A stretch of DNA of 32,914 nucleotides from Thermodesulfobacteriota bacterium (GCA_040755095.1 JBFMBH010000033.1:1-32914), one strand, 5' to 3'; counted from the stretch's first letter, positions 10,252 through 32,851 are shown. Program-made: numbers and translations. Notes: a model not told the origin generated them from the letters alone.

Positions 10252-12885
10252 ATGAGATGCCTCTCCTGCCGGGGGCGTGCCCCCCTTGTCATCCTGCTGT
10301 TTCTCTGTTTGCTGCCGCTGCGGGCCTCCGGTGAGACCTTTGCCGGCTATACCCGTCTCGGCCGGCTGGCCCTGGATGCGCCTACTGCCCTGGCCGTGGC
10401 TGGGGACGAGAGCCTCTCCGTGGTGCAGGCCAATGCCGGCCGGCTGGCGGTCTACGGCCCTGAGGGCAGCCAGCGGGCCAGCCGGTCCGACCTGGACCAG
10501 CCCAGCAGCGTGGCGGTGGCGCCGGATGGCAGCATCCTGGTCGGCTGCAGCGGCGATGGCAGCGTGCGGGTCTACACCCCGGACCTGGTTCCGGTCCGGC
10601 AGCTCGGCCGCGGCGCCGGCGAGGTCAGGCGGCCGCTGGCCATCGCCGTGTCCGCCAGTGGCACGATCTATGTCGCCGACGCCCTGGCCAACGCAATCAA
10701 GGTCTACGGGGCGGACGGCAGCTGGCGGTTCTCCTTCGGCAGCCCGGGCCGGGAGGACGGCCAGTTCAACTACCCCACCGCCATCACCATCCTCGAAGAG
10801 CGCCAGGAGATGGTGGTTGTCGACCTGTGCCTCGTGGACTCCCCCACGGGCACCCACCCGGGCGCCCGGCTGCAGGTCTTTGATCTCGAAGGACAGTTCC
10901 TGAGGCAATTCGGTGGGTTCGGCCTGGGGGCCGGCGTGCTCATCAAGCCTACGGGCGTGGCCGCCGATGGGGACGGCGATCTGCTGGTGGTGGATGCCTA
11001 CCAGGGCGTGGTGCAGCTGTTCGACGCCCTGGGCATCTACCAGGGGGCGGTCTACGACACCAGCACCCCCTTGCGGACGCCCCTCGATGTCGGCATCGGC
11101 GTCCAGACCGGCCGCCTGTTTGTTGCCGATGCCGCCGGCATCGAGGTGTTCGGCCTTCCGGGCAGCGTGCACACCGTTACCGCCGGTGCCGCTGGCCGGG
11201 GCCACCTGGCGCCGGCCGGGGCCGTCACGGTCGCAGACGGTGCGGCCCAGGACTTCCTGCTCGCCGCCGACGAGGGCTATGCCATCGCCGGCCTGGAGGT
11301 CGATGGGGTGGCGGTGGCTGGCGTGGGCGGCCTGACCCGGACGGTGTACACCCTGCCGGCGGTAGAGGCCGACCACGTCCTGGCCGTGACCTTCGCCCCC
11401 CAGGTCCATACGGTGCGGGCAACCGCCCAGGGCCATGGCCGCCTGAGCCCGGAGGGTGTCCTGTCCGTGGCGCACGGCGGCCAGGTGGCCTTCACCTTGA
11501 GCCCGGAGCCGGGCTACCGGGTGGGACGCCTGCTGGTGGACGGCGTCGAGCAGGGGGCGGCCAGCCAGTATGTCCTGGGCGGGATTGCCGGGGATCACAC
11601 CGTGGAGGCGACCTTCGTCGCCCCGGAGTCCGTGGCCATCTGGGCCGGTGCCGGTGCCCACGGCAGCATCGTCCCCAGCGGCACGGTGACCAGGGCCGAG
11701 GGGGACAGCGCCACCTTCACCATTGCCCCGGAGCCGGGCTACACCATCGCGGATGTGCTGGTGGACGGCATCGCCGCAGGGCCGGTGGACCGCTACACCT
11801 TTGTCGCCCTGGATCGGGATCACAGCATCGAGGCCCTGTTCCTGGCCGCCCCGGTCTGGCATGACCTCGTGGTCACGGTGGCGGGTGCCGGCGCGGTGGC
11901 AAGCGGGTCGGGAGACATCGCCTGCCCGCCTGCCTGTACGGCCGAGCTGGCCCAGGGCTCCCCGGTGGCTCTCGCCGCCAGTCCTGGCGCCGGGCAGGTG
12001 TTTGTCGGCTGGGGTGGCGACTGCACGGGCAGTGACCCGGTCTGCCGCCTGGTCATGACGGGCCAGCGGGCGGTGACTGCCCATTTCGGGCCAGACCGGG
12101 AGCGGGAGACCTTCGAGCTCGGCCACTGGCGCGCCTTCCCCTGGCTGACCGGTGGCGCCTCGGCCTGGACGATCCAGGACCAGGTGCCGCATCAGGGCCG
12201 GTACGCGGCCCAGGCGCCGATTGATCTGGCGGCTGGCGGCATGAGCTTCCTGGAGGTGGCCTTGGAGGTGCCCCAGCCGGGGGAGATCCGCTTCTGGCTG
12301 CGGCTGCGCGATACCACCGGCAGCGACCAGCTGAGCTTCCTGCTGGATGGGGTTGAAGCGGCCTCCTGGGCCGGGGATCTGGACTGGCAGGAAGCCTGGC
12401 TCCCGGTGCCGGCCGGCCGCCATGTCTTCCGGTGGGAATACCGGAAGAGGGACGGCGATGCCGCGGCCAGCGCCTGGCTGGACGACATCGTCTTCCCGCT
12501 CCATGTCCCGCCGCCGGCGCCGGTGCCGGATCTCAAGGCCAATGGCAGCGACGGGCCGATGATCCTGCGGCGCGGCCAGCCGCTGGTGGTCTCCTACGGC
12601 CTGGCAGCCGGCGCGGCCCTGGGCCAGGGCTCGGATTGGCTCCTGGCCCTGCACTCCCCCTGGGGCTGGTTCTTCTACGACCAGACGCGGCAGGTGTGGA
12701 GCCCGCGGCCGGCCTTGATCTACCAGGGGCCGCTGGCGGATGGCCATGCCCACACCACCTTCCTGGCCACCACCGGCCTGCCGCCGGGGGGCTATATCTT
12801 CTATTTCCTGGTGGATCGGACGGCCGACGGTCAGCTGGACCAGGATCTGGCCCTGGACGCGGTGCAGGTCAGGGTAGGCCGATGA
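10252..12885 (+). CDS. Exported NHL-propeller protein with InlB-like repeats (module 1)
   Basis: 877 residues with an N-terminal signal peptide (hydrophobic VILLFLCLLPL, then RASGE). Residues about 38-300 form an NHL-type beta-propeller with recurring units such as IYVADALANAIKVYG and LLVVDAYQGVVQLFD. Four repeats of ~75-80 residues follow (about 306-384, 385-458, 459-535, 536-615) of the divergent InlB-B/bacterial-repeat type, each with a YxIxxLxVDG-like core and a DHxxxxxF end; the fourth contains four Cys. Residues about 619-750 look like a carbohydrate-binding-type beta-sandwich (FEL..W...GGASAW, then AWLDDIVFP). The last ~115 (PDLKANGSDGP... SPWGWFFYD ... GYIFYFLVD) are an unnamed domain that recurs in exported Deltaproteobacterial proteins. 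It has no haem motif and no visible anchor. It is followed after 23 bases by the giant cytochrome and is homologous across its length to the NHL protein at 29972-32341. It is probably a surface partner of the cytochrome. Confidence 0.88.
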   Translation: MRCLSCRGRAPLVILLFLCLLPLRASGETFAGYTRLGRLALDAPTALAVAGDESLSVVQANAGRLAVYGPEGSQRASRSDLDQPSSVAVAPDGSILVGCSGDGSVRVYTPDLVPVRQLGRGAGEVRRPLAIAVSASGTIYVADALANAIKVYGADGSWRFSFGSPGREDGQFNYPTAITILEERQEMVVVDLCLVDSPTGTHPGARLQVFDLEGQFLRQFGGFGLGAGVLIKPTGVAADGDGDLLVVDAYQGVVQLFDALGIYQGAVYDTSTPLRTPLDVGIGVQTGRLFVADAAGIEVFGLPGSVHTVTAGAAGRGHLAPAGAVTVADGAAQDFLLAADEGYAIAGLEVDGVAVAGVGGLTRTVYTLPAVEADHVLAVTFAPQVHTVRATAQGHGRLSPEGVLSVAHGGQVAFTLSPEPGYRVGRLLVDGVEQGAASQYVLGGIAGDHTVEATFVAPESVAIWAGAGAHGSIVPSGTVTRAEGDSATFTIAPEPGYTIADVLVDGIAAGPVDRYTFVALDRDHSIEALFLAAPVWHDLVVTVAGAGAVASGSGDIACPPACTAELAQGSPVALAASPGAGQVFVGWGGDCTGSDPVCRLVMTGQRAVTAHFGPDRERETFELGHWRAFPWLTGGASAWTIQDQVPHQGRYAAQAPIDLAAGGMSFLEVALEVPQPGEIRFWLRLRDTTGSDQLSFLLDGVEAASWAGDLDWQEAWLPVPAGRHVFRWEYRKRDGDAAASAWLDDIVFPLHVPPPAPVPDLKANGSDGPMILRRGQPLVVSYGLAAGAALGQGSDWLLALHSPWGWFFYDQTRQVWSPRPALIYQGPLADGHAHTTFLATTGLPPGGYIFYFLVDRTADGQLDQDLALDAVQVRVGR

Positions 12886-12908: not shown

Positions 12909-15900
12909 ATGGCAGGCGCGAAGGCGATTCTGGTGGGTATGCTGGGCGTGCTCCTCTTGGCCGGTTCGGTGGTGGCCGACCGGTTCGATTACCACTATCC
13001 CCACAACTGGAGCACCAGTACCGCCTGCGAGAGCTGCCACTACATGGTGCAGGAGGCGCCGCCGGCCTGGGTGAGCAGCGCCACCCCCTACGACACCCTG
13101 TGCCTGAGCTGCCACAACGAGGTCATCCAGCCCAACCTCACGGTGCAGACCCACTCCAGCGCCAACACCAGCAGCCGGTACGGCGACTGGGCCGTCGAAT
13201 GCCGCACCTGCCACTGGCCGCACCACCAGCGCCAGTACCAGGTGTACGGCGCCACCGTGGCCACCGGCGTTTCCACGGGCCTCTCCGCCAGCCCGCCGGA
13301 CGAGGCGCACCCGTACGGCACCGGCACCCTGACCGTGGCGGACGCTGGCTGGGCCGAGGACCAGTTCAACGACTTCATCCTGGTCCCCAACACCGCCCAT
13401 CCCACCTACAACGCCCGCATCCTCGACACCACGAGCGACACCTTGCTGGTGAGCCCGGCCATCGATCTGGCCTATACCGCGGTGGGCGACCCGTTCGCCA
13501 TCTTCTACGGCAAGCTGATCAAGGACCAGATCCGGACCCCCAACAGCGGCCGGCAGACGGTGCGGTTCTTCAACACCACCGGACCCAACTCCTACGCCGA
13601 CGGCGATGCGTCCTCCGACGGGGTCTGCGAGGTCTGCCACACCCGAACGACCCACTTCCGGAACGACGGCAGCGCGCCGGACCAGCTGCACAGCAATGTC
13701 GGTGGCGGCCAGGCGGGCCGGAATTGCGTGGCCTGCCACGCCCATGCCAACGGCTTTGCCCACGGCGGCGGTGCGGGCGGCGGCGGCTGCGAATCCTGCC
13801 ATGGCCATGACGGCGGCTTCGGCGGACCCGGCTCCGGCGGCAAGGGCAGCTTCTTCAGCCACTCCACCCATACGGAAAGCGATGCCGACGATGCCAAGGG
13901 ACCGGCCCTCGCCTGCGGCGACTGCCACAACACCAGCGCCTTTCCCAGCTTCAAGGACGGCGCCGCCAGCCTGGCGGTCACCACGGTCTGTGACCCGTGC
14001 CATTCGCCGGGCGGCACCTACGACGGCGTCGGCGATCCGGAAGTCGGCGCCAAGGCCAACTGGGATGCCGGCATCTATGCCGCCGATGGGGTGTCCCTCA
14101 AGCCGGGCAAGGAGAAATGGTGCGCCACCTGTCACGATGAGGAGCCATCGGTGATCCAGGGGGTCAGCGCGCCCCACGTTATCGGCGACGAGGACGGCGC
14201 TTACACCTATGGCACGGGCTGGGGGTTCTACAAGACCGGCCATGGCCTGCCGGCGGCACAGGCCTATCCCAGCAAGGGCGGCCAGTTCCCGCCGCTCATG
14301 GTCAACGGCTCGAGCCGGGCCGTGGAGTGCGGCAGCTGCCATGACCTGGCCAGCCGGCATATCGATGGCGTGGCTCGGACCTACGGCACCCAGGCGGTCA
14401 CCCCCACCGGCTACCGGCAGGGCTACCGGCTGAAGATGATCGATGGCAAGGAGCCCATGGAGGTGCCGAAGACGCCCTGGGGCGAGAACACCTTCGATGA
14501 CTACCTCCTCTGTTTCCAGTGCCACGACTCGACCCCGTTCCTGGACCCGGTGGACGAGCGCTCCAACATGGCCCAGCGCAGCACCGGCAACGCCAGCCTC
14601 AAGGTCGGGCACTATTATCACCTGGCGTCCATCGGGTGGCAGGGCTGGCGATCGGACTGGCGGTCCACGGTCAACAGCGGCGTCAGCTGCACCCAGTGCC
14701 ACAACGTGCACGGCAGCAAGGCCTACGCCATGCTGTCCGACGGCTCGCTCACCGGCACGGCGCCAGGTCTCGAATTCTTCTACTACAACCGGGCCCTGTC
14801 CACCCGGGATCCCAACGCCTACAATCCGCCGGTGCCGCGCAGCCTGCCCCTGGGTCTGGCGGACGGCTTCCAGTGGCTGCCCCTGAGCACCAACCGGGTG
14901 GGCTGCAGCGCCACCTGCCACGGTCAGACCCTGTACCGCACCTTCGAATGGACGCCGTACAACGTGCCCAACCAGGCACCGCTCCTGGCCTGGACCGGGG
15001 AGGCCAACTACACCGCGGCCAGCGTCTATCCCACCAGCGCCGTCTCGGGCAGCAGCTTCGAATTCCGGGTCAAGTACCTCGACCACCTGCTGGATATGAA
15101 CGGCGCTGGCTTCGACAACGCGCCCAGCTACATCCGGGTGCTGCTCGACACCGACAACGACGGCGGATTCGAAACCGCTTATTCCATGGACTATGTGGGA
15201 CCGGCTGCTGGCGAAGGCCGGATCTACCGGAAGGTGCTGCCGATCAGGAACACGTTCAGCAACACCATCCCCTACAAGATCGTGGCCGGCGACGGACCGG
15301 ACACCGTCTCCACCGGCTCTGCCCCCAGCGGCCTGGCGGCAGAAGGCGCCCCCACGGAGGTCAGGACCCTGGAGCTCATCAACCGGCCGCCGGTGCTGTC
15401 GTGGACCAATGAGACCCATTTCGAGGCGGACGGGGTCAATCCCGACGCCGGCGGCGCCGGCCGGACGTTCAGCTTCCGGGTCAGCTACACGGATCCGGAC
15501 AACAACCCGCCGGATGCCAACGGCGTCCGGGTGGTGATCAACGGTATCGAATATGCCATGGAGGAGAAGGAGGCCTTCTATTACGACACTGGCCGGCACT
15601 TTGCCAGGACCGTGACCCTGGAGGCGGCCGGCGACCTGGCCTACCGGTTTGTGGCTCAGGATCTCTTCGGCGCGCCGGCCTCCGGCGAGCCGACCGCCGA
15701 GCACCTGGTTCAGGTGCAGGCGGCGACCACGCCGCCTGTCCTGGACTGGGTGGTCGAGGAAGGGCGCACCGCCGGGGTGAAACCGGCCGTCGGCCTGGCG
15801 GGGGAGGCCTTCGACTTCCGGATCCGCTACACCGATGCCGGCAACCAGTGGCCGCCCAGCGCCGGCTCTATGGAGGTGTGGGTGGATCAGAACGACAACG

Positions 15901-17474
15901 GGCTGGTGGATGCCGGTGAGACCCTGGAGATGGACGAAGAGGTGGCCGGTGCCGGTGCGGTTGCCGGCAAGCTGTACCGGCGCCAGGTGCGGCTGACCAG
16001 CGTTGGCGACGGCTCGATCCGGTACCGCTTCCTGGCGTCCAACGGCGCGGATCTGGCGGTGGGCGAGCCCACCGCCGACCAGGAGCTGACCATCCTCCGC
16101 TCGACGATCTGGACCACTGATGCCGATTTCAACGCCGGGGCTCTGGCCGGCCTGAGCGTCCTGGGCGCCGCGGAGCCGGCCTTTGTCACCCTGGCGCCCG
16201 GCCCGGAGAACTGGCGCCAGCTGAGCGTCACCGGCCAGCCGCCCGGCAGCAGCAGCGGCCCGCTGGTGTACGACAGCCGCTGCCAGAAGCTGGTCTACTA
16301 CGACGGCCAGACCTCCGAGCTCGACCCGGCGCTCGGCCAGTGGACGCGGATCACCACCGCCGCCGCCCCCCCCACCAACTACGCCAACTGGGGCTGGGCC
16401 GGCAGCGCCAACATGACCTACGACCCGCGCCGGGACCGGGTGGTCCTCCTGGACTACACGGGGGCGACCTGGGAGTACCACGCCGGCCTGTGGACCAACC
16501 GGGGGGCGGCCAATATCAATCCCCTGGGCCAGCGGCGCTTCAAGTACGCCCTGGTTTACGATACCAGCATCCGCCAGGTGGTCCTGGTGGGCGGGGTCAA
16601 CACCCCGGGCGTCAACTATGTCGGCGGGGTCATCAACTACGAGGAGACCTGGACCTATGATCCGGTATGGAACACCTGGACCCCGGTGCTCTTCCACAAC
16701 ACGGATCCCCCGGCGGGCAAGGGCTTCCGCAACTCCAAGGTGAGCCAGACGAACGCCTTCTACGATGAAGCCGCCAACCGGCTGGTCATCCCCGCTGGCC
16801 ACGGCTACAGCTACGGAGCGGCCTCCACCAGGACCTATGCCTTCAGCTCAGCCGACTGGCTGTGGAGCGATCTCGGCCTCGCCACCCCCAACCGCATGTA
16901 TCAGATTCCCCTGGCCTATGACAGTCGGCAGAGCCGAGGGATCCTCTACGGCGGCACCCTGGACGACCAGGCCCAGTACCAGACCTGGGCCTTCGACTCG
17001 GCCACGGCCATCTGGCAGCAGCTGAGCCCGGCCAATGCCCCCACCTTCGCTGCCGGCTCCATGGCCTACGATGCGGAGCACAGGCGGCTGGTCCTGAACG
17101 GCGGCGCCAGTGGCACCTGGACGTTCGGCGCCACCTATCCGACCGCCACCGGGACCATCACCGGCCTGATCGCCGACGCCGGGGCCGGGCAGACAGCCCA
17201 GTGGCATACGCTGGCCTGGGATGCCCAGGTTCCCGCGGGCACCGGGGTGCAGCTCCAGGTTCGCACCGGCAACAGCGAGGCGGAGCTGGCCGCCGCAGCC
17301 TTCCAGGGACCCGATGGCACCGGTCAGACCTTCTTCACCGCCTCGCCCAGCGCCCTGAGCGGCCTGGCCGCCTGCCGCTTCCTGGAGGTGGAGGCCAGCC
17401 TGGAGACTTCAGACCCGGCGCTCAGCCCCACTCTCCGCTCCATCACGGTGGGCTACGATACCCAGCCCGAGTGA
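12909..17474 (+). CDS. Giant exported multihaem c-cytochrome with Ig-like and Kelch-like domains
   Basis: 1521 residues from the ATG at 12909, which has AGGAGA 5 bases upstream. An in-frame ATG at 12882 overlaps the previous stop but lacks a site. The signal peptide ends near VVADRF. Residues 40-671 hold twelve CxxCH haem sites (the first at Cys40, the last canonical one at Cys594) plus one CxxxCH at Cys666, with scattered His for axial ligation. A haem-free insertion spans about 103-239 between haems 3 and 4, and a Gly/His-rich stretch lies around haems 5-6. Three Ig/cadherin-like domains follow (about 690-820, 823-935, 938-1060; each opens PxLxW and the second has SYTDPDNNPPDANG). Next comes a Kelch/galactose-oxidase-like propeller (about 1095-1410; LVYDS, MTYDPRRDRVVLL, ALVYDTSIRQVVLVGG, MAYDAEHRRLVLNGG) and a final beta domain to 1521. 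No lipobox or membrane anchor is visible. It probably carries electrons outside the cell. The haem part is homologous to the cytochrome at 25703-29941. Confidence 0.9.
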   Translation: MAGAKAILVGMLGVLLLAGSVVADRFDYHYPHNWSTSTACESCHYMVQEAPPAWVSSATPYDTLCLSCHNEVIQPNLTVQTHSSANTSSRYGDWAVECRTCHWPHHQRQYQVYGATVATGVSTGLSASPPDEAHPYGTGTLTVADAGWAEDQFNDFILVPNTAHPTYNARILDTTSDTLLVSPAIDLAYTAVGDPFAIFYGKLIKDQIRTPNSGRQTVRFFNTTGPNSYADGDASSDGVCEVCHTRTTHFRNDGSAPDQLHSNVGGGQAGRNCVACHAHANGFAHGGGAGGGGCESCHGHDGGFGGPGSGGKGSFFSHSTHTESDADDAKGPALACGDCHNTSAFPSFKDGAASLAVTTVCDPCHSPGGTYDGVGDPEVGAKANWDAGIYAADGVSLKPGKEKWCATCHDEEPSVIQGVSAPHVIGDEDGAYTYGTGWGFYKTGHGLPAAQAYPSKGGQFPPLMVNGSSRAVECGSCHDLASRHIDGVARTYGTQAVTPTGYRQGYRLKMIDGKEPMEVPKTPWGENTFDDYLLCFQCHDSTPFLDPVDERSNMAQRSTGNASLKVGHYYHLASIGWQGWRSDWRSTVNSGVSCTQCHNVHGSKAYAMLSDGSLTGTAPGLEFFYYNRALSTRDPNAYNPPVPRSLPLGLADGFQWLPLSTNRVGCSATCHGQTLYRTFEWTPYNVPNQAPLLAWTGEANYTAASVYPTSAVSGSSFEFRVKYLDHLLDMNGAGFDNAPSYIRVLLDTDNDGGFETAYSMDYVGPAAGEGRIYRKVLPIRNTFSNTIPYKIVAGDGPDTVSTGSAPSGLAAEGAPTEVRTLELINRPPVLSWTNETHFEADGVNPDAGGAGRTFSFRVSYTDPDNNPPDANGVRVVINGIEYAMEEKEAFYYDTGRHFARTVTLEAAGDLAYRFVAQDLFGAPASGEPTAEHLVQVQAATTPPVLDWVVEEGRTAGVKPAVGLAGEAFDFRIRYTDAGNQWPPSAGSMEVWVDQNDNGLVDAGETLEMDEEVAGAGAVAGKLYRRQVRLTSVGDGSIRYRFLASNGADLAVGEPTADQELTILRSTIWTTDADFNAGALAGLSVLGAAEPAFVTLAPGPENWRQLSVTGQPPGSSSGPLVYDSRCQKLVYYDGQTSELDPALGQWTRITTAAAPPTNYANWGWAGSANMTYDPRRDRVVLLDYTGATWEYHAGLWTNRGAANINPLGQRRFKYALVYDTSIRQVVLVGGVNTPGVNYVGGVINYEETWTYDPVWNTWTPVLFHNTDPPAGKGFRNSKVSQTNAFYDEAANRLVIPAGHGYSYGAASTRTYAFSSADWLWSDLGLATPNRMYQIPLAYDSRQSRGILYGGTLDDQAQYQTWAFDSATAIWQQLSPANAPTFAAGSMAYDAEHRRLVLNGGASGTWTFGATYPTATGTITGLIADAGAGQTAQWHTLAWDAQVPAGTGVQLQVRTGNSEAELAAAAFQGPDGTGQTFFTASPSALSGLAACRFLEVEASLETSDPALSPTLRSITVGYDTQPE

Positions 17475-17504
17475 TCCCGGCCCAGGGGCCGAGCGTCTGG
17501 TCAC
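17471..17504. terminator. Hairpin between convergent operon ends
   Basis: The two convergent genes stop only 26 bases apart. Between them CGGCC/GGCCG (17478-17482 and 17487-17491) can form a short stem, and GTGA/TCAC (17471-17474 and 17501-17504) an outer one. There is no T-run on either strand, so a role as a bidirectional terminator is only possible. Confidence 0.25.
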
Positions 17505-23500: not shown

Positions 23501-25663
23501 ATACTGCTTCAGGGTCGCATCGCCAGCATCGTTGCCGTAGACGATGCTGTTGGTCACCGTGGCATCGCCGTAAAGCCCGCCGCCGTCGTCCCAGGCATAA
23601 TTGCCGCTGATGGTGCTGTTGAGGATGGTGGTGGCGCCGGCCGCTCTTACCCCGCCGCCATCATTGGTGAAGGCCCGGTCGGCGGTGTTGCCGGTGATGA
23701 CGCAGTTGGTGATGTCAAGCGTCGAGCCGGCATAGATGCCGCCGCCGTCGCCTGCCCTGTTGCCCTGGACGTATGTTCTGACGATCTCGGTTGGCGATGC
23801 GGTATAGATGCCGCCGCCGGAATAGTTGCCCGCGGTGATATTGTTGCGGACGGTTGAGCCTGAGACCGTGGTCCTGGTGCCGGGCGGATAAGCCGCATAG
23901 CTGCCGGTGATGTAGAGGCCGGCGCCGTTGCGGGCGGCGGTGTTGTCCGAGATGTTGCTGTTGCTGATGGCGAGCGGCGACTCGCTTGCGACAATGGTGC
24001 CGCCGGCGATGGCCGCGGAGCTGGCGTTGCCGGTGACGGTCACGTTGTCCAGCACGGTGATCTCGGTCACGCCGGTCAGGTACATGGCCGCGCCGATGCT
24101 GGCGCTGTTGCCGGTCAGGGCGCTGTTCATGACCGCAAGCGGGCAGGTGTTGGCGTAGATGCCGCCGCCGGCATAGGCGCCGGAGCTGTTGCCGGCGATG
24201 GTGGTGCCATCGATCACGGTCCTGGTGCCCGCGGCGAAACCGGAATAGCTGCCGGCCAGGTAGAGACCAGCGCCTTCGCGGCTGCCGGTGTTGCGGGAGA
24301 TGGAGCCGCCGGTGATGGTCAGGGGCGAGGACTCCGCATAGATGGCACCGCCATTGATGGCGGTGCCGATGTTGTCGTCGACCTGGGTGTTGGTGATCAC
24401 CGTGACCAAGGGCAGGTTGATCAGGCGCAAGCCCGAGCCCTGTTTGCCGCTGTTGCTGGTGATGGCACTGTTGGTGATCGCGAGTGGCGAGCCGTTGGAG
24501 AGGATGCCGCCGCCATTGTAACCGTTGGCATTGTTGCCGTTGATGGTGGTGCTGTCGATAAGGGTCTTGGTGTCGGCCGGAAAGCCGGCATAGCTGCCGG
24601 TCAGATAGATACCGGCCCCGTCGCGGGAAGTGTTGTTGGAAACCGAGCTGTTGTTGCCGATCGCCATCGGTGAATCGATGGAATAAATACCACCGGCAAT
24701 ATATCCCCCGGCATTATTCGAATTGATGGCGACGTTGTCGATTGTGGTTATTGTCGGGACATTCTGCAGCCGCAAGCCAGCCCCTTCCTTGCCCGAGTTG
24801 TTGGACACGGAGCCGCCGGTAATGGTCAGGGAGCTCTGGTTGGAGCAGATACCGCCGGTGGTGTAGCCGTTGGCGGTGTTATAGACCACATTCGTATTGG
24901 TCAGGGTCGTGGTCCCGACCATGGCGTTCAGGGAGATGCCCGCATAATCCCGGCCCGAGTTGTACGAAACGGTGCAGTTGGTCAGGGTGAGATCCAAGCC
25001 GGCGGTGGCGTAAAGGCCCGAGCCTTTATTGGCCTGGTTGGCCAGGCCGGACTGGCCGATGGTCGTGTTGCTGATCGTGGCCCCGCCGCCGTTGATATAG
25101 ATGCCTGCCCCGTAGTTGTCTTCACTGATGGTAGCTGTTGCCAGCACGTTGCCGGCAATGACGCAGTTCTGGATGGTGGGGGTGGCACCGGCAGTGATCC
25201 TGATCCCCCGGTATTTGGCACCGATGCCCTGATTGTCGATGGTAAAGCCGTCGAGCACCGCGCTGGCGGCCTCGCCGCTCACAAACGAGACAACGGCGTT
25301 GCCGCTGCCAGCCGCGCCGCGAAGGGTGGTGGCACCGGCACCGCCGGCCGACCGCACCGTGATGCTCTTGCCGGAAAAATTGATGTTCTCGCTGTAGGTG
25401 GCGCTGGCCACGAGGACCGTGTCCCCGCTCCCTGCCGCATTGATGGCATCCTGAATGTTGGCGTAGGAGCCCGGCACATTGAGTGTGGCGGCAAGGGCGG
25501 GATGGAAGAAGACAGGCAAGAAGAAGATCAACAAGGTCGAAGCCGCAACGCGGCGGAACAGCGAAGCAGCGTCCGGGATACCGCTCGTTATCCTTGCGCC
25601 GAACTTCCCAGAACTGCGCACCACTTCAAGTGGCTGATACCGGGACGCGTGTCTGTCAATCAT
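17501..25663 (-). CDS. Giant adhesin-like surface protein: beta-helix, FN3-like, LamG, DUF2341, MopE-like
   Basis: About 2720 residues. GAGAGG sits only 2 bases before an ATG at 25669 but 8 before the ATG at 25663, so the latter is preferred. The leader is long: some 38 polar residues, then a hydrophobic core (STLLIFFLPVFF) and ALAA. Residues about 60-815 are a right-handed parallel beta-helix rich in GGGIY, NNS and TNS turns. About 820-1125 are fibronectin-III-like repeats (SYDFRMTYNDGNG). About 1125-1325 and 1660-1855 are two near-duplicate LamG/concanavalin-like domains (SYTFEAWV, GVIDEVVIY), with more FN3-like units between. About 1930-2025 resemble DUF2341, followed by a lectin-like sandwich to ~2225. 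About 2375-2610 are MopE-type Cys/Asp repeats (DCDD, CDGADNDCDG, CNGRDDNCNG), likely Ca or Cu binding. A last FN3 domain ends the chain. No sorting signal is seen. It is the third gene of the NHL2-cytochrome2 operon, 39 bases after the cytochrome. Confidence 0.88.
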   Translation of the reverse strand: MIDRHASRYQPLEVVRSSGKFGARITSGIPDAASLFRRVAASTLLIFFLPVFFHPALAATLNVPGSYANIQDAINAAGSGDTVLVASATYSENINFSGKSITVRSAGGAGATTLRGAAGSGNAVVSFVSGEAASAVLDGFTIDNQGIGAKYRGIRITAGATPTIQNCVIAGNVLATATISEDNYGAGIYINGGGATISNTTIGQSGLANQANKGSGLYATAGLDLTLTNCTVSYNSGRDYAGISLNAMVGTTTLTNTNVVYNTANGYTTGGICSNQSSLTITGGSVSNNSGKEGAGLRLQNVPTITTIDNVAINSNNAGGYIAGGIYSIDSPMAIGNNSSVSNNTSRDGAGIYLTGSYAGFPADTKTLIDSTTINGNNANGYNGGGILSNGSPLAITNSAITSNSGKQGSGLRLINLPLVTVITNTQVDDNIGTAINGGAIYAESSPLTITGGSISRNTGSREGAGLYLAGSYSGFAAGTRTVIDGTTIAGNSSGAYAGGGIYANTCPLAVMNSALTGNSASIGAAMYLTGVTEITVLDNVTVTGNASSAAIAGGTIVASESPLAISNSNISDNTAARNGAGLYITGSYAAYPPGTRTTVSGSTVRNNITAGNYSGGGIYTASPTEIVRTYVQGNRAGDGGGIYAGSTLDITNCVITGNTADRAFTNDGGGVRAAGATTILNSTISGNYAWDDGGGLYGDATVTNSIVYGNDAGDATLKQYGGVPTFSWSDVGQTGFPSGTSMNSDPMFVDFQTAASGLPTTAGNFRICGGAGTPDPACSNASPCIDGGTGAGAPADDIEGDTRNGNPDIGADEYAINATTVGVATAVAASITSVAVTMPYSKDDNHDNTYTVDYKLAAAGSWTNWVTAAAHVASPYATTITGLTPEASYDFRMTYNDGNGVSGTNPQTVTVTMPKNPTTTGTATATPANGVALHISMPYTDDVNADSTCSVEYKPSASGTWLAWGINPKGHSPSPFTDTITGLARGGTYDARLTYHDADGVAGSNPQIVSAITLPGNTAPDQPVNSSPADAAAGVSRTPTLVASVFSDPEGDTHEASQWQLAGDAGFASIVYDTGPCTDLVRHAVATTLANNAAYHWRVRYRDSGGLWSAYSAGTALTTGTPLPASTVAHWRFDENSGTTANDSAGTSHGTVSGAAWITGNSGTALSFNGSSDDVSTPLNIEQAGGQSYTFEAWVKPASTSAARHFVVSTDNGWYDWTLLREGASWAVFNGSGSIVSSALSVDVDTWQHLVAVFDDTAGRVILYKNGAAALVSAISYDSSDSDIHIGSNQGTSDFFDGVIDEVVIYHAALSSAEVMARYLVTRNTHAPGQPANQAPAQGATGVAVTPTLTGSAFADFDPGDAHTASRWRLRQGAGTYGDPVTSLDSGPVTSSLTSYTVPVANGLALDTGYFWSVQYKDSSGLWSPWSAETGFTTGGSNAAPDTPTTQAPAGGATVNAPRPTLTSSAFSDPDGAGDSHAASQWRVATASGNYTGATLTHDSALQTASLTSYALPADLAAGTTCYWQVRHRDQAGAWSAWSAEATFDTAANFPPDTPTNGSPAAGATVNDRTPTLTGSAYRDVDGDVQRAAQWQIGEDSGFATMAYDSGTVAAATSHDIASVLANDTTYSWRLRYQDSQGNWSGWSAGTSFATGLSQPDGVVAYWKLDDGSGTTAADSSVVGIYDGEISGATWTVNGKFHSALTFDGVADSVSTPLNIDQGGTQSYTFEAWVRPAGTSAGRHEVVTSDNGWFDWSLLREGDCWAVFDGSGSVIFPDMSVDVGVWQHLAAVFDHSAGQVTLYKNGRATAYANLTFDSSDSNVFIGSRLGTSEYFDGVIDEVVIYNRALSAAEIRARYDYSAPGKPSNGTPANGATGVSRAPALAASDFVDADEGDFHAASRWQIRPANDQYGGAGSYDSGASFADLTRTSPATAPQYQRPITLAPATPVDGFQVKITLTAANTDNYANMKADGSDLRFYDAAGAKLPYWLETWNTGGSSTVWVKVKTAGTSTVYLLYGDALAVAESDADQVFELYDNFDSATLKSGWSFFNPGGDDAYTLTERPGWLRIKVVGDSDTWNTVNDAPFLHWDAWTTAQDFVLTTRQDGANVSGNRYSGLAYIRSLATGSTNKGYFGSKSSTSSVMFSADGYQGSTCATGAAVHHLRFRKTGSTLEYDWSTDGESWNNCGIYTLPSVPRDWGLMAKSWSGGGSFNTDYDYFHVRKYAASEPAATVGAQAANGLVSPYAFAFGTTYFWRLQYEDSFGAWSSFSDETSFTTVNDTIPSAPSGLAATASGACAIDLAWTDNANGATGNETGFAIERKAGAGGSWLAVATVAPNTTTYSDSTGLAIDTTCFYRVRATNSGGHSGFSNEASAATTSVTCYQDSDGDTYGNPAVIEAACQAPAGYVTDSADCDDTKAAIHPATVWYQDVDGDGYASGTNQVQCAAPGPTWHLAGDLTASGGDCNDDDPAVHPGLVWFKDADADGYSDGTALAQCVDPGASYYPAGGLAATSGDCNDAVAAIRPGAVEECDGADNDCDGSVDEGFAQDHTFYRDADGDTYGDGYHSIATCQTAAPSGYVANSSDCDDGHRAIHPAATEYCNGRDDNCNGQIDEACTPCAGTLAAPSGLTATAVNSRIIRLEWADNSDCEEGFVLEAQSWNGLWTVRQTLGPAVSTFTDTVGIEPQKQYRYRVKAARGSTESTYSNEALVTTPPYAAGDRACE
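20095..20690 (-). repeat. LamG-like block, copy 2 (internal duplication)
   Basis: It encodes a LamG-like domain nearly matching the copy at 21700-22290, about 1.6 kb away. Shared landmarks are SYTFEAWV, DNGWFDW/DNGWYDW, LLREG, WAVF.GSGS, LYKNG and FDGVIDEVVIY. The similarity is visible in the DNA as well, so the duplication is fairly recent. Confidence 0.75.
21700..22290 (-). repeat. LamG-like block, copy 1 (internal duplication)
   Basis: This is the partner of the block at 20095-20690 within the giant surface protein. Matching landmarks (for instance the LLREG codons) are about 1609 bases apart. The unit duplicated probably includes the FN3-like domains between the two lectin-like blocks. 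Confidence 0.75.
23871..25000 (-). repeat. Four ~345-base super-repeats in the beta-helix
   Basis: Equivalent landmarks (codons for the TRT/TKT turn before a V/IDGTTI-like strand) fall at 23871, 24219, 24564 and 24906, giving periods of 348, 345 and 342 bases (116, 115 and 114 residues). Each unit has the order turn, GGGIY or GGIY strand, PLAI/PLTI strand, then GAGLYL with a GSY loop in the first three. They are diverged tandem copies that lengthen the helix. Confidence 0.7.
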
Positions 25664-25702
25664 CTTCATGACCTCTCTCTGTATGGCATCCGCTGCAGGC
25701 CC

Positions 25703-28700
25703 CTACCACGGCGTCACGGAATTCCACAGCTCATTGTCCGGCCACTGACCGCCGCCCGGCCCGCCGCCACCGAAGGCAGAAGCCGTCTCGTGGCAGGCCA
25801 GCGGATTACGCTCGTCCACCACCTTGAGCCCATAGAAAATACCAGGAAAGAATCCGTAGTAGCCGCCGTCTGCCTTGTTCGCCTCGATGGCGTGACCGCC
25901 GGCGACGACACCCCCGCGGTGGCTCTTGTTGAGGCAGTTGGTCTGCATGAGGCGTGGCAGCCCGGCGTTGTGCGGGACGTGGCACTTGGAGCAGGGGAAG
26001 TTGTGCTCGGCGTTGTTGCCCCAGTCCTTGACCGTTTCATGGATGCGGTCCACCGTCTTCCAGCCGGTATCCTTGTCCGTCCCGTTGGTGAGCCGGGTCT
26101 TGGGGTGGCAGCGCAGGCAAAGGCCGGCAAAGGTCGCATCGTCCTCGGTAATGCCGGTGTAGGCATCACCGGTCTGACAGGTCGGATTGGCGTTGAAGGT
26201 GACCCGATCGGTGTTCCAGTGGCGCCGTTGCGGATCGTCGTGCTCCGTCTGGCGCTCGCCCCTGGTGGCGCCGACGTTCGCCGTGTTCTCGTTCGGCGAA
26301 TCCTCCTGGTAGGGCGAGGTCATCCAGGTGCCCTTGAGCAGCGGCACGCCGTAGGACTGCTTGCTGCCGAGGGAGGGGCTGACACCGTGCGGATCGTGAC
26401 AGGGGGTGCACAGGCCGTTGATCGGGTAGACCGCCTCGTCGCCGGAGCCTGGCGTGCCGTCCAGGCCATTGAGGGAGGCGGAGGCCATCAGGTGGCCCCC
26501 CATGTTGTCCCGGCCGGCCCGGTAGGGAAAGCGCTCCTTGGTGCCGGAAAGGCTGGTGCCGAAGCGATCGCCGTCTTTGTATCCCTTGATGGCCGCGGCA
26601 GCGCCGAAGGTCTGGCTGAAGCCCCAGGGGGTGGCGAGGGCGGTGGGGGAAAGATGGCAGTCGAAGCAGAGGTCGGCGCCGGTGGCGTACGGGTTGTGGT
26701 CGCTGCCGTCGCTGTTGGCCTGTGGGGTGTAGGTGACGGCGTAGCCGCCCCTGCCCGCCGTGGTGCTCTTGAGCAGGGCGCCGCTTGGGGTGCCGTTGAA
26801 GCTGACGTAGCTCGACGTCGTGCCCGAGGCGGCCGAGCCATGGGCGTTGTGACAGTCGAAGCAGAGCACGTTCAGGCTGCCGGCCCGGGTGTTGGCGATC
26901 TCGGCGTCCAGTCCGTCCATCCGGCCATCGGCGTCGTTGTCAACACTGCTCCAGCCGCCCTCGTTGCCCACCGCGTTGCCGTGGGCAGAGAAGGCCTTGC
27001 TGAGATCCTTGGCCGCGATGCGCGGATAGGAGGATTTGTAGGGGGCATACTTGCCCCAGGTCGTCACGCCGGTTTGGGAGTAGCGGGCCGCGATGGAGCT
27101 GCGGTCCCAGGCGTATTGCCGCGGGGTGTTGCAGTCCCCGAACGGCTCGGTGTCGTTGTTCGGGTCGCTGTGGCAGGAGAGACAATGGGTGTTGAGCCTG
27201 GCGATCTCGGCGCGCGAGCCGTCGGCGTGGTAACTGATGGCCGTACCGGTGTTGTACGAAGTGGGCCGCTCGCCAGGGCCGTAGACCACCAGATCCACCG
27301 GCGCACCGCTGTTGAAGGAGCCGCCGTGGTATGTGGGGTTGATGGAGCCGTCGCTGTTCGCCTCCCAATGGCACGGGTAGCAATGGGCGCCGGTAACCGC
27401 GATGCCCTGCACATGGTGGGAGCTGGCGTCGAATTGCGGCCCGATGGCGGCCCGGCCGTTCTGGGCCACGCGGTGGCAGCCGAGACAGGCGGAGTCGCCC
27501 CAGGTGGCCTCGGTGCCGCCGTGGCAGGAGATGCTGGCGCACAGCCCGCCGTTGCCGCCGAAGAGGTAGATGAAGCTCACCCCGGTGCCGGGCTTGAGGT
27601 TGTACTGGTCATTGAGGTGCGCGCTGCCGGTGATCGTCGTGCCGTCGGCTGTGGTGGCGCTGTGGCACGTGTCGCAAGAAAAGCCGCTGTGGGCCGCGTG
27701 CGTGTTGGCCTTGGGCTGTGCCGAGGGGTAGCTCGGGCCGCTGTCGTGGCAGCCGGCGCAGGTCAGGGTCTGGCCGGAGAACCAGTCCGGCGGCGGCATC
27801 AGGACCTTGTTGCCGGTGGCGACCACGGTGCCGTCGTGGTGGCAGTCTGCGCAGACGGTGGTGTTGTCCTTGGTGGTGCCGCCGTCCTTGAAGTGCGGCA
27901 TGTCGGCCAGGTCGTGGCAGTCCGTGCAGGCCAGGCCGGCGTCGGTCAGGTGGCCGGCATGGGAGCCGGAGCCGCCGTGGCAGGCCAGATCGCCACAGCT
28001 GGCCCCGCCGGCAGCGCCCCCGCCGTGGGCGAAGCTCGCCTGGTGGGAGTGGCACGGCATGCAGCTCGCGCCGGTATTGCCCTGGTTGTGGTTGCCGGGA
28101 TGGTTGGTGTCCGGATGGGCCTGGCCCGCTGCCCCATGGCAGGCATCGCAAACGCCATCGTTGGCCGCAGCTGAAGGATCCAGGTCGCGCAGATCGGTGT
28201 CGCTGGCCTCCAGACCGGCGATATCCACCGGATTGCTTGCCCCGCCCACCCGGCCGTCGATGGCCGGCAGCACCATGGCGAGCCTGGTGGTGCCGTGCAC
28301 CTCGTGGCAATCCTCGCACTGGTAGCCCGGGGCGGCCGCATAGTCGGCGCTGTTGCCGTAGGCCGGGAAGGCGTTGGCCGCCTGGGCAGCACTGTCGTAA
28401 TTGCCCGTGATCCCGCCCGAGTGGACCGTGGCCTCGGCCGTGGCATCGTAGCCCAAGGCGCCGTTGGCGGACTGGCCGACCTTGTGGCAATCGAGGCAGA
28501 CCTCGGAGATCGCCGAGGTAGAGTCGAGACCGTCGCCAGCCACCGCCTTCAGCCTGGTATCGCCGTAAGTACGGTTGATGTGCGGTGAGGCGCTCCGGTC
28601 GTGACAGACGAGGCAAGCATAATCCGGGCCGTTTTGGCCGTGCAGGGTGGCGTTGAAGCCCAGGGCCGAGTCGAGGCCGTGGCCGTTCACGTAATAGCCG

Positions 28701-29941
28701 TAGGAGGCGTTGTCGCCCGCCTTGTTCGGGGCCGGCGCCGTGCCGCTGCCGTCCTGCTTGTCGTTTGCCGGGTCTTCATCATGACAGCTGATGCAGAAGA
28801 GCTCCTTGCCGGCTTTGAGCGCGTTACCGTCATAGACTCCGGTGTCGAAGTTGTTCTTGGCCCCGACCGCGGGGTCGTTCACCCCGTCGACCATGCCCCC
28901 GGGACTGTGGCAGTGGTTGCAGGCCGTGGTATTGGCCAGGGTTTCGCCGTCGGCGAAGGCCGGGAAATTGTCTTCCTGATGACAGGTAAGGCAGTCGACA
29001 CCGGCAAGCATGCCCGCAAGGTGCGTGGGGTGCGACTTCTGGTCCTGGTGACAGCCGGCCTGGCCGCTGCAGCCGCTGCCGTTGCCGCCGCCGCCCCCGC
29101 CGCCGTGACCGAAGCCGTTGGTATGAGCATGGCAGTCGATGCAGCTGGTGCCGGCCTTGCCGCCGAGGTTCTCATGATTCTGCGTGCTTCCGGTGCCGTC
29201 GTTCCGGAAATGGGTGGTTTGGGTGTGGCAGACCTCGCAGACGCCGTCCCGGGTGCCGTCGCCGTCAGCGTAGGAGTTGGCGCCGGTCTTGCGGAACAGC
29301 CGCACGGTTCTGCTGCCGCTGTTGGGGGTGGGAACGGTCGATTTGATGAGCTTGCCGTAGTAGACCGCAAAGGTGTTGCCGGCCGCGGCCTTGGCGAGAT
29401 CCATCGGGCCGTCCACTGTCAGGGTGTCCGCCGTGGTATCGATGATCGTGTAGCTGTAGGAGGGGTTGGCCAGATTGGGGACGAGGACGTGGCTGTTGAG
29501 CTGGTCGCCGCTCCAGCCGGCCCCGGCCATGGTGAGGGAGTCGCTGTCCAGGGCGGTGGAGACGCCACTGGCCAGGTAGGCGGCACTGCCGTATGTCCTC
29601 GCCTGCATCTGGTGATGGGGCCAGTGACAGACCCGGCATTCGATGGACCAGGTGCCATGGGTGTCCGAGGTGGCCAGGCTGGAGTGGGCCGAGACGTAGG
29701 GGGCACGGACATCGTTGTGACACCCCCAGCACATGTTGTTGTAGGCGGTGTCGTCGGCATTCTGGGGCACATGGGTGACCCAGGCCGGCGGGTCGTTGCT
29801 GACGATGTAGTGGCAGGAGTCGCAGCCGATGCCGCTTGGCGCCGAGTGCGGGTAGTCCAGTCCCAGCTGGTCCGCTGCCGCTGGCGCCATCGTCAGCAGG
29901 ACGGCGCCGATGATGAAGAGGGCCGCGCTCGGTGTCTGCAT
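25703..29941 (-). CDS. Giant exported multihaem c-cytochrome, ~25-28 haems (module 2)
   Basis: 1412 residues from the ATG at 29941, which is preceded by GGGGAG. An earlier in-frame ATG at 29965 has no site, and with 29941 the first haem Cys is residue 40, exactly as in the plus-strand cytochrome. The signal peptide ends at PAAADQLG. There are 25 CxxCH motifs between residue 40 and about 1321, plus two CxxxxCH (CGDLACH, CASISCH) each followed by a CxxCH, the pattern of the Geobacter CxxxxCH...CxxCH family, and one CxxxxxCH (CSGQAGCH). Up to 28 haems are thus possible, with abundant His. A haem-free insertion (about 107-234) sits between haems 3 and 4 as in the other cytochrome. There is no Ig or propeller tail and no anchor. 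It follows the NHL protein by 30 bases and precedes the giant adhesin by 39 bases, so all three form one operon. The likely role is extracellular electron transfer or haem-wire formation. Confidence 0.92.
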   Translation of the reverse strand: MQTPSAALFIIGAVLLTMAPAAADQLGLDYPHSAPSGIGCDSCHYIVSNDPPAWVTHVPQNADDTAYNNMCWGCHNDVRAPYVSAHSSLATSDTHGTWSIECRVCHWPHHQMQARTYGSAAYLASGVSTALDSDSLTMAGAGWSGDQLNSHVLVPNLANPSYSYTIIDTTADTLTVDGPMDLAKAAAGNTFAVYYGKLIKSTVPTPNSGSRTVRLFRKTGANSYADGDGTRDGVCEVCHTQTTHFRNDGTGSTQNHENLGGKAGTSCIDCHAHTNGFGHGGGGGGGNGSGCSGQAGCHQDQKSHPTHLAGMLAGVDCLTCHQEDNFPAFADGETLANTTACNHCHSPGGMVDGVNDPAVGAKNNFDTGVYDGNALKAGKELFCISCHDEDPANDKQDGSGTAPAPNKAGDNASYGYYVNGHGLDSALGFNATLHGQNGPDYACLVCHDRSASPHINRTYGDTRLKAVAGDGLDSTSAISEVCLDCHKVGQSANGALGYDATAEATVHSGGITGNYDSAAQAANAFPAYGNSADYAAAPGYQCEDCHEVHGTTRLAMVLPAIDGRVGGASNPVDIAGLEASDTDLRDLDPSAAANDGVCDACHGAAGQAHPDTNHPGNHNQGNTGASCMPCHSHQASFAHGGGAAGGASCGDLACHGGSGSHAGHLTDAGLACTDCHDLADMPHFKDGGTTKDNTTVCADCHHDGTVVATGNKVLMPPPDWFSGQTLTCAGCHDSGPSYPSAQPKANTHAAHSGFSCDTCHSATTADGTTITGSAHLNDQYNLKPGTGVSFIYLFGGNGGLCASISCHGGTEATWGDSACLGCHRVAQNGRAAIGPQFDASSHHVQGIAVTGAHCYPCHWEANSDGSINPTYHGGSFNSGAPVDLVVYGPGERPTSYNTGTAISYHADGSRAEIARLNTHCLSCHSDPNNDTEPFGDCNTPRQYAWDRSSIAARYSQTGVTTWGKYAPYKSSYPRIAAKDLSKAFSAHGNAVGNEGGWSSVDNDADGRMDGLDAEIANTRAGSLNVLCFDCHNAHGSAASGTTSSYVSFNGTPSGALLKSTTAGRGGYAVTYTPQANSDGSDHNPYATGADLCFDCHLSPTALATPWGFSQTFGAAAAIKGYKDGDRFGTSLSGTKERFPYRAGRDNMGGHLMASASLNGLDGTPGSGDEAVYPINGLCTPCHDPHGVSPSLGSKQSYGVPLLKGTWMTSPYQEDSPNENTANVGATRGERQTEHDDPQRRHWNTDRVTFNANPTCQTGDAYTGITEDDATFAGLCLRCHPKTRLTNGTDKDTGWKTVDRIHETVKDWGNNAEHNFPCSKCHVPHNAGLPRLMQTNCLNKSHRGGVVAGGHAIEANKADGGYYGFFPGIFYGLKVVDERNPLACHETASAFGGGGPGGGQWPDNELWNSVTPW

Positions 29942-29971
29942 GGTGTCTCTCCCCGTCCGGTGCATGAAGGG

Positions 29972-32341
29972 CTATCGCGAAACGTGGACCTGTACCACGT
30001 CGTAGATGAACGGCTCGTCCAGGCGATGATTCATGATCGTGTCGACCAGGAAGTAGAAGGTGTAGGTGCCCGCCGGCAATCCCGTGAGGTCCAGCAGGTC
30101 CAGGTGACCACTCAGATCGGGAAGGGGGCCTTGCCAGGAGAGCTTGAGGCCCCGGAGCCAGGTCCCCCGGAAACCGTTGTAGCTGTACCAGCCCCAGGGC
30201 GAGCCGAAGAGGATGAACCAGTCGCCGGGATCGCCCTCCCGGTCTCCGGCTGCCAGACCGAGGGAGATCAGGAACGGATCGCTGGCCGCCAGCTCCAGGG
30301 GACCGTCCAGGGTATTCACCTTGAGATCGGTCACCGGGAAGCGCACCTCGACATGATCCGGGAAGAGGATGTCGTCCAGCCAGGCCGCGCCACCGGTGGA
30401 TTCCCAGCGGAAGACACGGCGGCCTGCCGTGACGGCAAAGCGCTGCTCGGTCCAATCCAGCACGCCGCTCCAGGCGTCCTGCTCGCGGCCATCGATGAGG
30501 AACCGCAGCCGGCCCGTCCCTTCCAGCTTGCAGGCGAAGGTGATCGCACCGGGCGCGGTGACCTCCAAGGCCACCTCCAGGAAGGAGAAGGCGTCGCCGC
30601 CGGTGGCCGGGGCCTGGATCGCGTAGGCACCGGAACGGGTGGTGTCGCCCTGGAGACGCCAGTGGCCGGCACCGCCGGTGAGCCAGGGATAGCCTGCCAG
30701 GTTGCCGGACTCGAAGCCCTCCAGGCTCTCCTCGGGGAGGAAGCGGGCTACTACGGTCCGGTTGCTGTCCAGGAGAAGAGCGCAGGCGGCCTCGACGCCG
30801 GAGCAATCACCGTTCCAGCCGGCGAACCGGTAGCCATGGTCCGGGGTGGCTGCCAGGACCACCCGCGTGCCTGGGGCCAGCTCCGCCTCGCACTGTCCCG
30901 GGCAGCGGATGTCCCCAGGGTCGCCCGCCACCTGGCCGTTGCCGTCCACGGTCACAGCCAAGGTGTGCGCTTGCGGGCTCACCGTCCCGAACACCGCCTC
31001 AATGGTATGATCCCGGTCGATGGCCGCGAAGGTGTAGCTCGCCAGCCGGCCGGCCGAATGGCCGTCGACCAGAAGATCCAGGATCTCGTAGCCGGCGGCT
31101 GCTGCGACGCTGAAGGTCAGGTCCTGGCCCAGAGAGGCCGTGACCGGACCGGCCGGGCTGATGGCGCCGCCACTGGTGGCCGTGGCGGTGACCGTAAAGA
31201 CGCGCTCCCGGAAGGATGCCTCGATGGCATGGTCGCTCAGCACGCAGGGAAAGGTGAACGAGGAGAGTGCCCCCACCTCGGTGCCGTCCACCCGTACTCC
31301 GGCGATCTCGAAGCCGGCATCGGGCACGATCGCAAAGTGCCGGTTGTCGCCCTGATAGACCTGGATGGCACCGGCCGGCTCAATGCTGCCGCCAGGACCA
31401 GCAGTGGCGTCAATGGTGTGGGTGGCCGGCGGGCCATAGACCTCCAGGCTGCCGGTCCGCTGGGAGACGATGAACAGCCGGCCGGTCACGGGGCCGACAC
31501 TCACATCCAGGGTCGTGCGCATGGGATGGCCGCTGTCGAACACCGTTTCCTGGTGGCTGCCGTCGCGGTCGAAGATCTGGACCACGTTTTCGAGGGCATC
31601 CGCAACCAGGACCCTCCCCCCGGCAGTTGCAAGCCCCAGGGGCTTCATCAGGCTGCCGTCGTCCATGCCGAACTGGCCGAAGCCGGATACGAAGCCGCCT
31701 TCCAGGTCGAAGATCTGGATCCTGGCTCCTTCATGGGAGCCCAGGCCCTGGGCGGAGCGGACCACGGGGAGATCGCTGACCATGATCTGACCGGCCTCTT
31801 CGTCGATATCCAGGGCCACCGGGTAATGGAACTGGCCGGCGCCGCTGCCGGTCTCGCCGAAGGAGAAGAGGGCGCGGCCCTGGGCATCGTAGACCTTGAC
31901 CCGGTCGGCACGGGCGTCGGCGACATAGATCTGGCCCTGGGAGTCGACACGGATGTCCGCTGGCCGGCCGAGCTCTCCTGGGCCTCGACCCAGCGTCGAC
32001 AGCCTTTCCAGGGTCGAGCTGAAGACAACGACGCTGCCGTCGCCGTCATTGCCGACGTAGATCCGGCCACCGGTATCCGTCGCGACGCTGACTGGCCTGG
32101 GCAGGTCTTTCAGGGTGCGGAGGAACCGGCCGGCCCGGTCGAAGACTCGCACCTGATTCCGGGACGATTCAGCGACATAGATGTTTTCCGTCCCATCCAC
32201 CGCCACCGCCGTGGGCACCAGCCCCGGGATGGCGAACAGGCGCACGTAGCCGGCAGCCGCCTGGGCCGGTACCGCTGCGGCAAGCACCAGCATTGCCAGG
32301 GCGACCCCCCACGTGAAGGACCGGTGAAGAACACGCGTCAT
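29972..32341 (-). CDS. Exported NHL-propeller protein with InlB-like repeats (module 2)
   Basis: 789 residues from the ATG at 32341, with GAGAGG 8 bases ahead; the in-frame GTG at 32350 overlaps that site and is less likely. The signal peptide is AMLVLAAAVPAQA. Residues about 40-300 form an NHL beta-propeller (IYVAESSRNQVRVFD, IYVGNDGDGSVVVF, IYVADARADRVKVYD, VLVADALENVVQIFD). Three InlB-B-like repeats start at residue ~307 (GFEIAGVRVDG, GYEILDLLVDG, GYRFAGWNGDC), one fewer than in its homologue at 10252-12885, which accounts for most of the ~88-residue difference. A beta-sandwich (SFLEVALEV ... AWLDDILFP) and the same unnamed C-terminal domain (DLKVNTLDGP, GSPWGWYSYN, GTYTFYFLVD) complete it. 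It is the first gene of the 14.8-kb minus-strand operon. It has no haem site and no anchor, and is probably a partner or scaffold of the downstream cytochrome. Confidence 0.88.
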   Translation of the reverse strand: MTRVLHRSFTWGVALAMLVLAAAVPAQAAAGYVRLFAIPGLVPTAVAVDGTENIYVAESSRNQVRVFDRAGRFLRTLKDLPRPVSVATDTGGRIYVGNDGDGSVVVFSSTLERLSTLGRGPGELGRPADIRVDSQGQIYVADARADRVKVYDAQGRALFSFGETGSGAGQFHYPVALDIDEEAGQIMVSDLPVVRSAQGLGSHEGARIQIFDLEGGFVSGFGQFGMDDGSLMKPLGLATAGGRVLVADALENVVQIFDRDGSHQETVFDSGHPMRTTLDVSVGPVTGRLFIVSQRTGSLEVYGPPATHTIDATAGPGGSIEPAGAIQVYQGDNRHFAIVPDAGFEIAGVRVDGTEVGALSSFTFPCVLSDHAIEASFRERVFTVTATATSGGAISPAGPVTASLGQDLTFSVAAAAGYEILDLLVDGHSAGRLASYTFAAIDRDHTIEAVFGTVSPQAHTLAVTVDGNGQVAGDPGDIRCPGQCEAELAPGTRVVLAATPDHGYRFAGWNGDCSGVEAACALLLDSNRTVVARFLPEESLEGFESGNLAGYPWLTGGAGHWRLQGDTTRSGAYAIQAPATGGDAFSFLEVALEVTAPGAITFACKLEGTGRLRFLIDGREQDAWSGVLDWTEQRFAVTAGRRVFRWESTGGAAWLDDILFPDHVEVRFPVTDLKVNTLDGPLELAASDPFLISLGLAAGDREGDPGDWFILFGSPWGWYSYNGFRGTWLRGLKLSWQGPLPDLSGHLDLLDLTGLPAGTYTFYFLVDTIMNHRLDEPFIYDVVQVHVSR

Positions 32342-32851
32342 GGCAGTCACCTCTCAAAGCGAGCCAGTGCCAGCAGCCCCAAAAAAAATGACCGGGGAGC
32401 TCTCACCTGCAAGCTGCCCGATCATCTCTTGGTCGCCAGTTCGTCGATCCACTCTGCCGAACGCTGAGCAGGACGATGGATATGCTGTCTTCAGGCTATC
32501 ATCCCCGCGTTTGTCGACTCCATGGAAGATCTTGTGGCGAATCCGGCACCTTTTGTGAAGTGACTTCCCGCGATCGGGAACGTTGCCAGAAATGCCGGGG
32601 TGTGGCGGGAGCAGTGGTGGGGAGCAGCGCCGGACACCAGCGTTGGCCGCCCCACGATCGGTGGCGACGTGCGGCCAATGGATCCTCCCGTAGGGGCGAC
32701 GCATGCGTAGAAACGCCTGGGGGACTTCGACGATTTTGTCGCGACGGTAAGAGAATGGGTCGCCGAGAAGAGCCCGTCGTGACCGCCAATCTCTTCCGGC
32801 ACCAGTTCGTCCGCGCCAAGTGGGCGGCCCGCGGTTGCCGCCCTCATCAAT
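32342..32851. other. Upstream region of the minus-strand surface operon; no clear gene
   Basis: Several open frames cross this ~510-base stretch on both strands, but none reads like a real protein family over its length. A 23-codon plus-strand piece (32711-32782, ending TGA) reads KRLGDFDDFVATVREWVAEK. It vaguely resembles the C-terminal helix of HepT/DUF86 HEPN proteins and may be another gene remnant. A run of eight T on the minus strand (near 32380) lies close to the NHL gene. The promoter of the minus-strand operon must lie here, but I cannot place it. Confidence 0.35.

Follow-up and report, generated by a model that had tools for sequence, protein, structure and literature searches.

The gene at 25703..29941 in the 32,914-nucleotide stretch of Thermodesulfobacteriota DNA analysed here (the window) raises the question of how many haems its product carries when three of its cysteine pairs depart from the CxxCH spacing and a further pair lies much farther apart. 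Our overall reading, to which we give a probability of about 0.78, is that of a Sec-exported, soluble giant cytochrome that would conduct electrons outside the cell or at its outer surface, together with an NHL-repeat propeller protein encoded just upstream. It would bind 28 haems, at 25 CxxCH sites, both CxxxxCH (CX4CH) sites and the single CxxxxxCH (CX5CH) site, and most likely a 29th at a site with a long loop between its cysteines.

The cytochrome gene and its haem motifs

The gene occupies a minus-strand open frame of 1420 codons (P0001, 29965..25703), within which the ATG at 29941 has a better ribosome site than the frame start at 29965, and the protein is probably 1412 amino acids long as counted from that ATG. 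The first-pass annotation gave the coordinates 25703-29941 with the strand unstated, and these fit the 1412-residue protein on the minus strand. Residue numbers used here count from 29965, not from the ATG.

25703..29941, minus strand: large, predicted secreted multihaem c-type cytochrome with 25 CxxCH, two CX4CH, one CX5CH and a candidate CX46CH
29949..29954, minus strand: Shine-Dalgarno-like GGGGAG, seven bases ahead of the ATG at 29941
29048..29071, minus strand: CX5CH site CSGQAGCH (aa299-306)
27977..27997, minus strand: CX4CH site CGDLACH (aa657-663), CX5CH in the close paralogue
27521..27541, minus strand: CX4CH site CASISCH (aa809-815), CATISCH in the paralogue

Judged by eye, the N-terminus is hydrophobic, with a Sec-type signal that ends in APAAA and in which no lipobox cysteine was seen. 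Two Pfam families, Cytochrome_C7 and Cytochrom_c3_2, match above their cut-offs, and the presence of many CxxCH motifs in a protein that appears to be exported places it in the multihaem c-type class. That the gene is real is indicated by a paralogue of 1428 codons in the same genome, which is 60% identical from end to end (64% in the search); the genome holds further paralogues, one of them in the window on the plus strand (12909-17474). Shadow open frames lying opposite real genes in this GC-rich DNA (P0003, P0005, P0007 and P0008; 828-3032, 2932-5199, 10234-12753 and 12831-16802, minus strand) were set aside. A match to the cytochrome was found in 25 of the 58 genomes searched, the nearest named record being a Desulfobulbaceae MAG (L031), which suggests that the window comes from Desulfobulbales or a neighbouring order within Desulfobacterota. 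Searches of plasmids and of viral contigs returned no relatives.

A motif scan of the cytochrome counted 25 CxxCH, in keeping with the very high haem count claimed at first pass, and recovered the three unusual sites listed there, namely CX5CH at aa299 and CX4CH at aa657 and aa809; no CXnCH with n=1, 3 or 6-14 occurs in the protein. Behind each CX4CH comes a CxxCH, as had also been noticed (aa680 after aa657, aa827 after aa809); the Geobacter CxxxxCH/CxxCH cytochromes (TIGR01904) show this order too, likewise within about 20 residues and in secreted multihaem proteins of very large size. The assignment to that family, proposed along with it, fares less well than the arrangement: TIGR01904 scores 20.7 bits, below the NCBI cut-off of 27, and matches best at the second pair, and the CX5CH and long-loop sites lie outside the model's name. 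The DmsE/MtrA-type decahaem model (TIGR03508) reaches 44 bits against a cut-off of 192. The OmcS, OmcE and OmcZ chains gave no sequence match at E up to 1, nor did a profile built from the C-terminal domain recover any of them, and a sequence relation to the OmcZ-type filament cytochromes was not detected.

PDB searches returned no solved structure of a close relative; the match 7zs0-2 was rejected as a structural guide, as it covers a short stretch only and leaves the CX4CH cysteines uncovered. AlphaFold models built with few alignment rows had a pLDDT of 24 for aa905-1420 and of 31 for aa24-500, too low for placing haems or disulphides. The cytochrome is a known kind of large multihaem protein, with a rare but real CX5CH spacing and a probable long-loop haem site.

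The CX5CH site and the range of haem spacings

The CX5CH site sits within a three-haem module that occurs twice in the protein.

28907..29143, minus strand: three-haem module, copy 1 (aa275-353), which holds the CX5CH site
27839..28063, minus strand: three-haem module, copy 2 (aa635-709), whose matching site is CX4CH

In order, the module consists of C..CH.H...F.HGG, the odd site, SHPTH or a similar stretch, and two C..CH. In an alignment of modules, the middle site is CxxCH, CX4CH or CX5CH among relatives, including copies in the same genome. Because the position is fixed and these same-genome copies carry any of the three spacings, CSGQAGCH is very probably a haem site, and the comparison thus answers what the first-pass annotation had left unclear about haem binding at CxxxxxCH. 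At two of the three odd positions the spacing in the 60% paralogue is not that of the cytochrome: the CX5CH at aa299 corresponds to CxxCH at paralogue residue 300 and the CX4CH at aa657 to CX5CH at paralogue residue 672 (equivalences that rest on module position, since BLAST puts gaps in these loops), and aa809 is CX4CH in both.

Genuine CX5CH copies were found in three of 258 genomes of the order, using a DNA pattern of CX5CH and the histidines that follow it, and a related pattern recovered two more from another family of the phylum. Altogether, CX5CH at the module site is represented by 12 distinct sequences from six genomes and five families (one of the sequences from G018). In all 12, both cysteines and the histidine are kept and the downstream histidines are present, and the five residues between the cysteines vary. 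A tree of the module has few resolved branches and gives no count of the spacing changes.

In structures of tetrahaem cytochrome c3, CX4CH sites bind haem. Published work on this cytochrome describes haem binding at CX4CH (PMC10454114), although it is a small four-haem periplasmic protein, unlike the one studied here. A full-text search of open-licence papers found none that names CX5CH or CXXXXXCH. A census of spacings drew on 84 distinct multihaem frames, which together hold 1190 CxxCH; its expected numbers come from shuffled sequences. CXnCH was observed 24 times for n=3 (0.47 expected), 57 times for n=4 (0.45), 17 times for n=5 (0.31) and once for n=6 (0.42), with n=6-19 near chance; the frames are related to one another, so independent cases are overstated, and the n=5 cases, inspected by eye, belong to some five unrelated sites. 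In a second, larger set (95 frames) the counts were 39, 156, 24, 6 and 5 for n=3, 4, 5, 6 and 7, with fewer than 0.9 expected for each. The census points to CX5CH as a real but less common haem spacing in this group, with a tolerance that appears to fade beyond five, and sequence comparison supports all three odd spacings of the cytochrome (two CX4CH and one CX5CH) as real haem sites. At such sites a few residues would have been inserted between the cysteines, with the second cysteine, the histidine and the nearby distal histidines staying in place.

The candidate C-terminal long-loop site

The last 100 residues of the cytochrome consist of CSKCHxPHxxGLPRLMQTNC, a stretch of 46 residues, CH and a WN.VTPW tail.

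25790..25936, minus strand: candidate long-loop haem site, Cys1344 (TNC), 46 amino acids, Cys1391-His1392

Cys1344 and Cys1391-His1392 were invariant in the first family alignment; the other lone cysteines, Cys945 and Cys1263, are unmatched in the aligned relative L031. Of 395 genomes of the phylum, 25 gave a match to a profile of the C-terminal region, and the cysteine was followed by CH after 22-102 residues in 63 of 63 distinct unmasked copies (of two partly N-masked copies kept apart from these, one is cut before the CH position and the other has CH). A second profile, ended before the loop to avoid circularity, added three complete copies, all with CH, whose loops measure 47, 43 and 68 residues; this brings the count to 66 of 66. 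No plain CxxCH was found at this position in any copy among the relatives, which makes the site less sure than the CX5CH site. We nevertheless take Cys1344 and Cys1391-His1392 most likely to be a 29th haem site, whose span between the cysteines would have grown into a 46-residue surface loop. As with all the sites counted here, we infer haem binding from conservation.

Loops within haem motifs are known elsewhere. Haem 1 of OmcZ, an extracellular multihaem cytochrome of Geobacter sulfurreducens, has a 14-residue loop between its cysteines, and this loop lies at the subunit interface (PMC9473688); OmcZ is similar to the present protein in having a haem motif with an inserted loop, although it has eight haems and its loop is shorter than the 46 residues found here or the 22-102 of the family. 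The sulfite reductases MccA and SirA also have long spans between haem cysteines, though again shorter than here, CX15CH and CX12NKGCH (PMC6976685), but these are octahaem enzymes with a dedicated lyase and the site within the reductase, and no sequence relation to them was seen. By analogy with OmcZ, the long loop could serve in contact with a partner or the next subunit. We think it somewhat better than an even chance that a haem site with cysteines 22-102 residues apart is conserved throughout the phylum (presumably Desulfobacterota) as the final site in giant extracellular cytochromes, that its variable loop forms a partner- or subunit-specific surface, and that it adds one haem to any count based on CX2-4CH. 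Such a site seems to be undescribed in the literature that could be searched.

The same residues could be explained in another way, with haem at the CX4CH and CX5CH sites, a Cys1344-Cys1391 disulphide closing a surface loop and His1392 serving as the distal ligand of a neighbouring haem, so that the count stays at 28. The lack of a solved relative and the low pLDDT of the C-terminal AlphaFold model leave room for such a bond, and the extra loop cysteines of the 63 copies come mostly in even numbers (none in 55, two in five, four in one, one in two), which makes loop disulphides plausible. Moreover, the shortest loop has 22 residues, and no intermediate links the long loop to CxxCH. However, a disulphide would not readily account for a histidine directly after the second cysteine in every one of the 66 complete copies, given how freely the loop varies in length and sequence; a CH pair is the signature of a haem motif, and OmcZ and MccA/SirA provide precedents for loops between haem cysteines. 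We consider the disulphide rather unlikely.

It is also conceivable that the stretched sites hold haem by one thioether, through the cysteine of CH, with the first cysteine unused, given that the second cysteine and the histidine form the core of the motif. Single-cysteine c-type haems are indeed known from the mitochondrial cytochromes of euglenozoans. The first cysteine is, however, invariant at both the CX5CH and the long-loop site, and we regard this explanation as improbable. More doubtful still, to the point that we give it very little weight, is that CX5CH is what remains, in one paralogue, of a haem site that has degenerated and no longer binds: its rarity and the lack of a paper naming it among the open-licence full texts would fit, but a relic should decay, whereas the two cysteines and the histidine are retained across the 12 sequences of five families and CX5CH is enriched at unrelated sites too.

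Haem binding at all the sites, as we prefer to read them, would have some consequences. Published genome haem counts use CxxCH and sometimes CX3CH and CX4CH (PMC10734462, PMC5566968), and with haem at CX5CH and at the long-loop motif, many giant cytochromes of metal- and sulphate-reducing relatives would be undercounted. A hypervariable, haem-anchored loop would also offer a candidate, open to test, for how partners are recognised in extracellular electron transfer. If the long-loop motif binds haem, a lyase must bring together two cysteines widely separated in the sequence, a point of interest for substrate recognition by System II.

Haem lyases and the NHL-cytochrome cassette

System II is the maturation system indicated by the gene content of this genome. 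Its single ResB protein is encoded on contig C72 next to a CcsA-type protein; another CcsA-type protein, on contig C61, adjoins a gene that we take from its translation to be one of sirohaem synthesis, and a third, a divergent protein of 343 residues on C90 (L079), has no adjacent ResB match. No full-length CcmF/NrfE match was found in the genome, and a need for a special NrfE-type lyase is unsupported. The divergent C90 protein is a possible specialised lyase; nothing in the lyase genes of the genome links a special lyase to the odd haem sites, and no CcsA or ResB match lies anywhere in the window.

The long-loop site and the NHL partner gene were both absent from the first-pass annotation. 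The NHL genes and the second cytochrome of the window are as follows.

29972..32350, minus strand: NHL-repeat beta-propeller with InlB-like repeats, immediately upstream of the cytochrome, its cassette partner
10252..12885, plus strand: NHL-repeat propeller paired with the second cytochrome, directly upstream of it
12909..17474, plus strand: paralogous multihaem cytochrome with 12 CxxCH and CX3CH, CxxCH at the equivalent module site, possible alternative start at 12882

The NHL-cytochrome cassette recurs in the genome, and most cassettes of the order have the big cytochrome immediately preceded by the NHL gene, with a gap that is often about 60 bases or less; beyond the order, three of 20 loci showed the pairing. 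In some cassettes a six-haem cytochrome stands ahead of the NHL gene. Identification of the NHL protein with ScyF and similar proteins was rejected, as the NCBIfam matches are far below cut-off. NHL proteins adjoin multihaem cytochromes in the Uet cluster (PMC10734462), and in a Geoalkalibacter locus an NHL protein beside multihaem cytochromes has been suggested to bind mineral nanocrystals (PMC12016550). The present locus resembles both in having an NHL propeller gene beside extracellular-type multihaem cytochromes, but the window yielded neither their porin nor their undecahaem cytochrome, and no porin or other conduit part was found beside the cytochrome gene. From the pairing known in these two systems, the most likely role of the cytochrome and its NHL partner would be extracellular electron transfer, to an outside acceptor.

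Several further observations concern the neighbouring and related genes. The haem region of the second cytochrome (12909-17474) ends with a CX3CH (CSATCH), and two relatives, in G406 and G553, have CX5CH and CX3CH in a frame similar to it. In several cassettes the NHL gene is preceded by a small, conserved cytochrome that has one CX3CH besides its six CxxCH (L033:2590-3825, L049:989-2224). The longest multihaem frame of the genome (L034, G000:C1:119001-139000), reported at 5814 codons and partly N-masked, has CX4CH, CX6CH and the TNC motif. Finally, a secreted protein of 2722 residues follows the cytochrome on the same strand (17501-25669, minus), with a beta-helix-like N-terminus, LamG and Ig/fn3 domains and Cu-binding MopE motifs.
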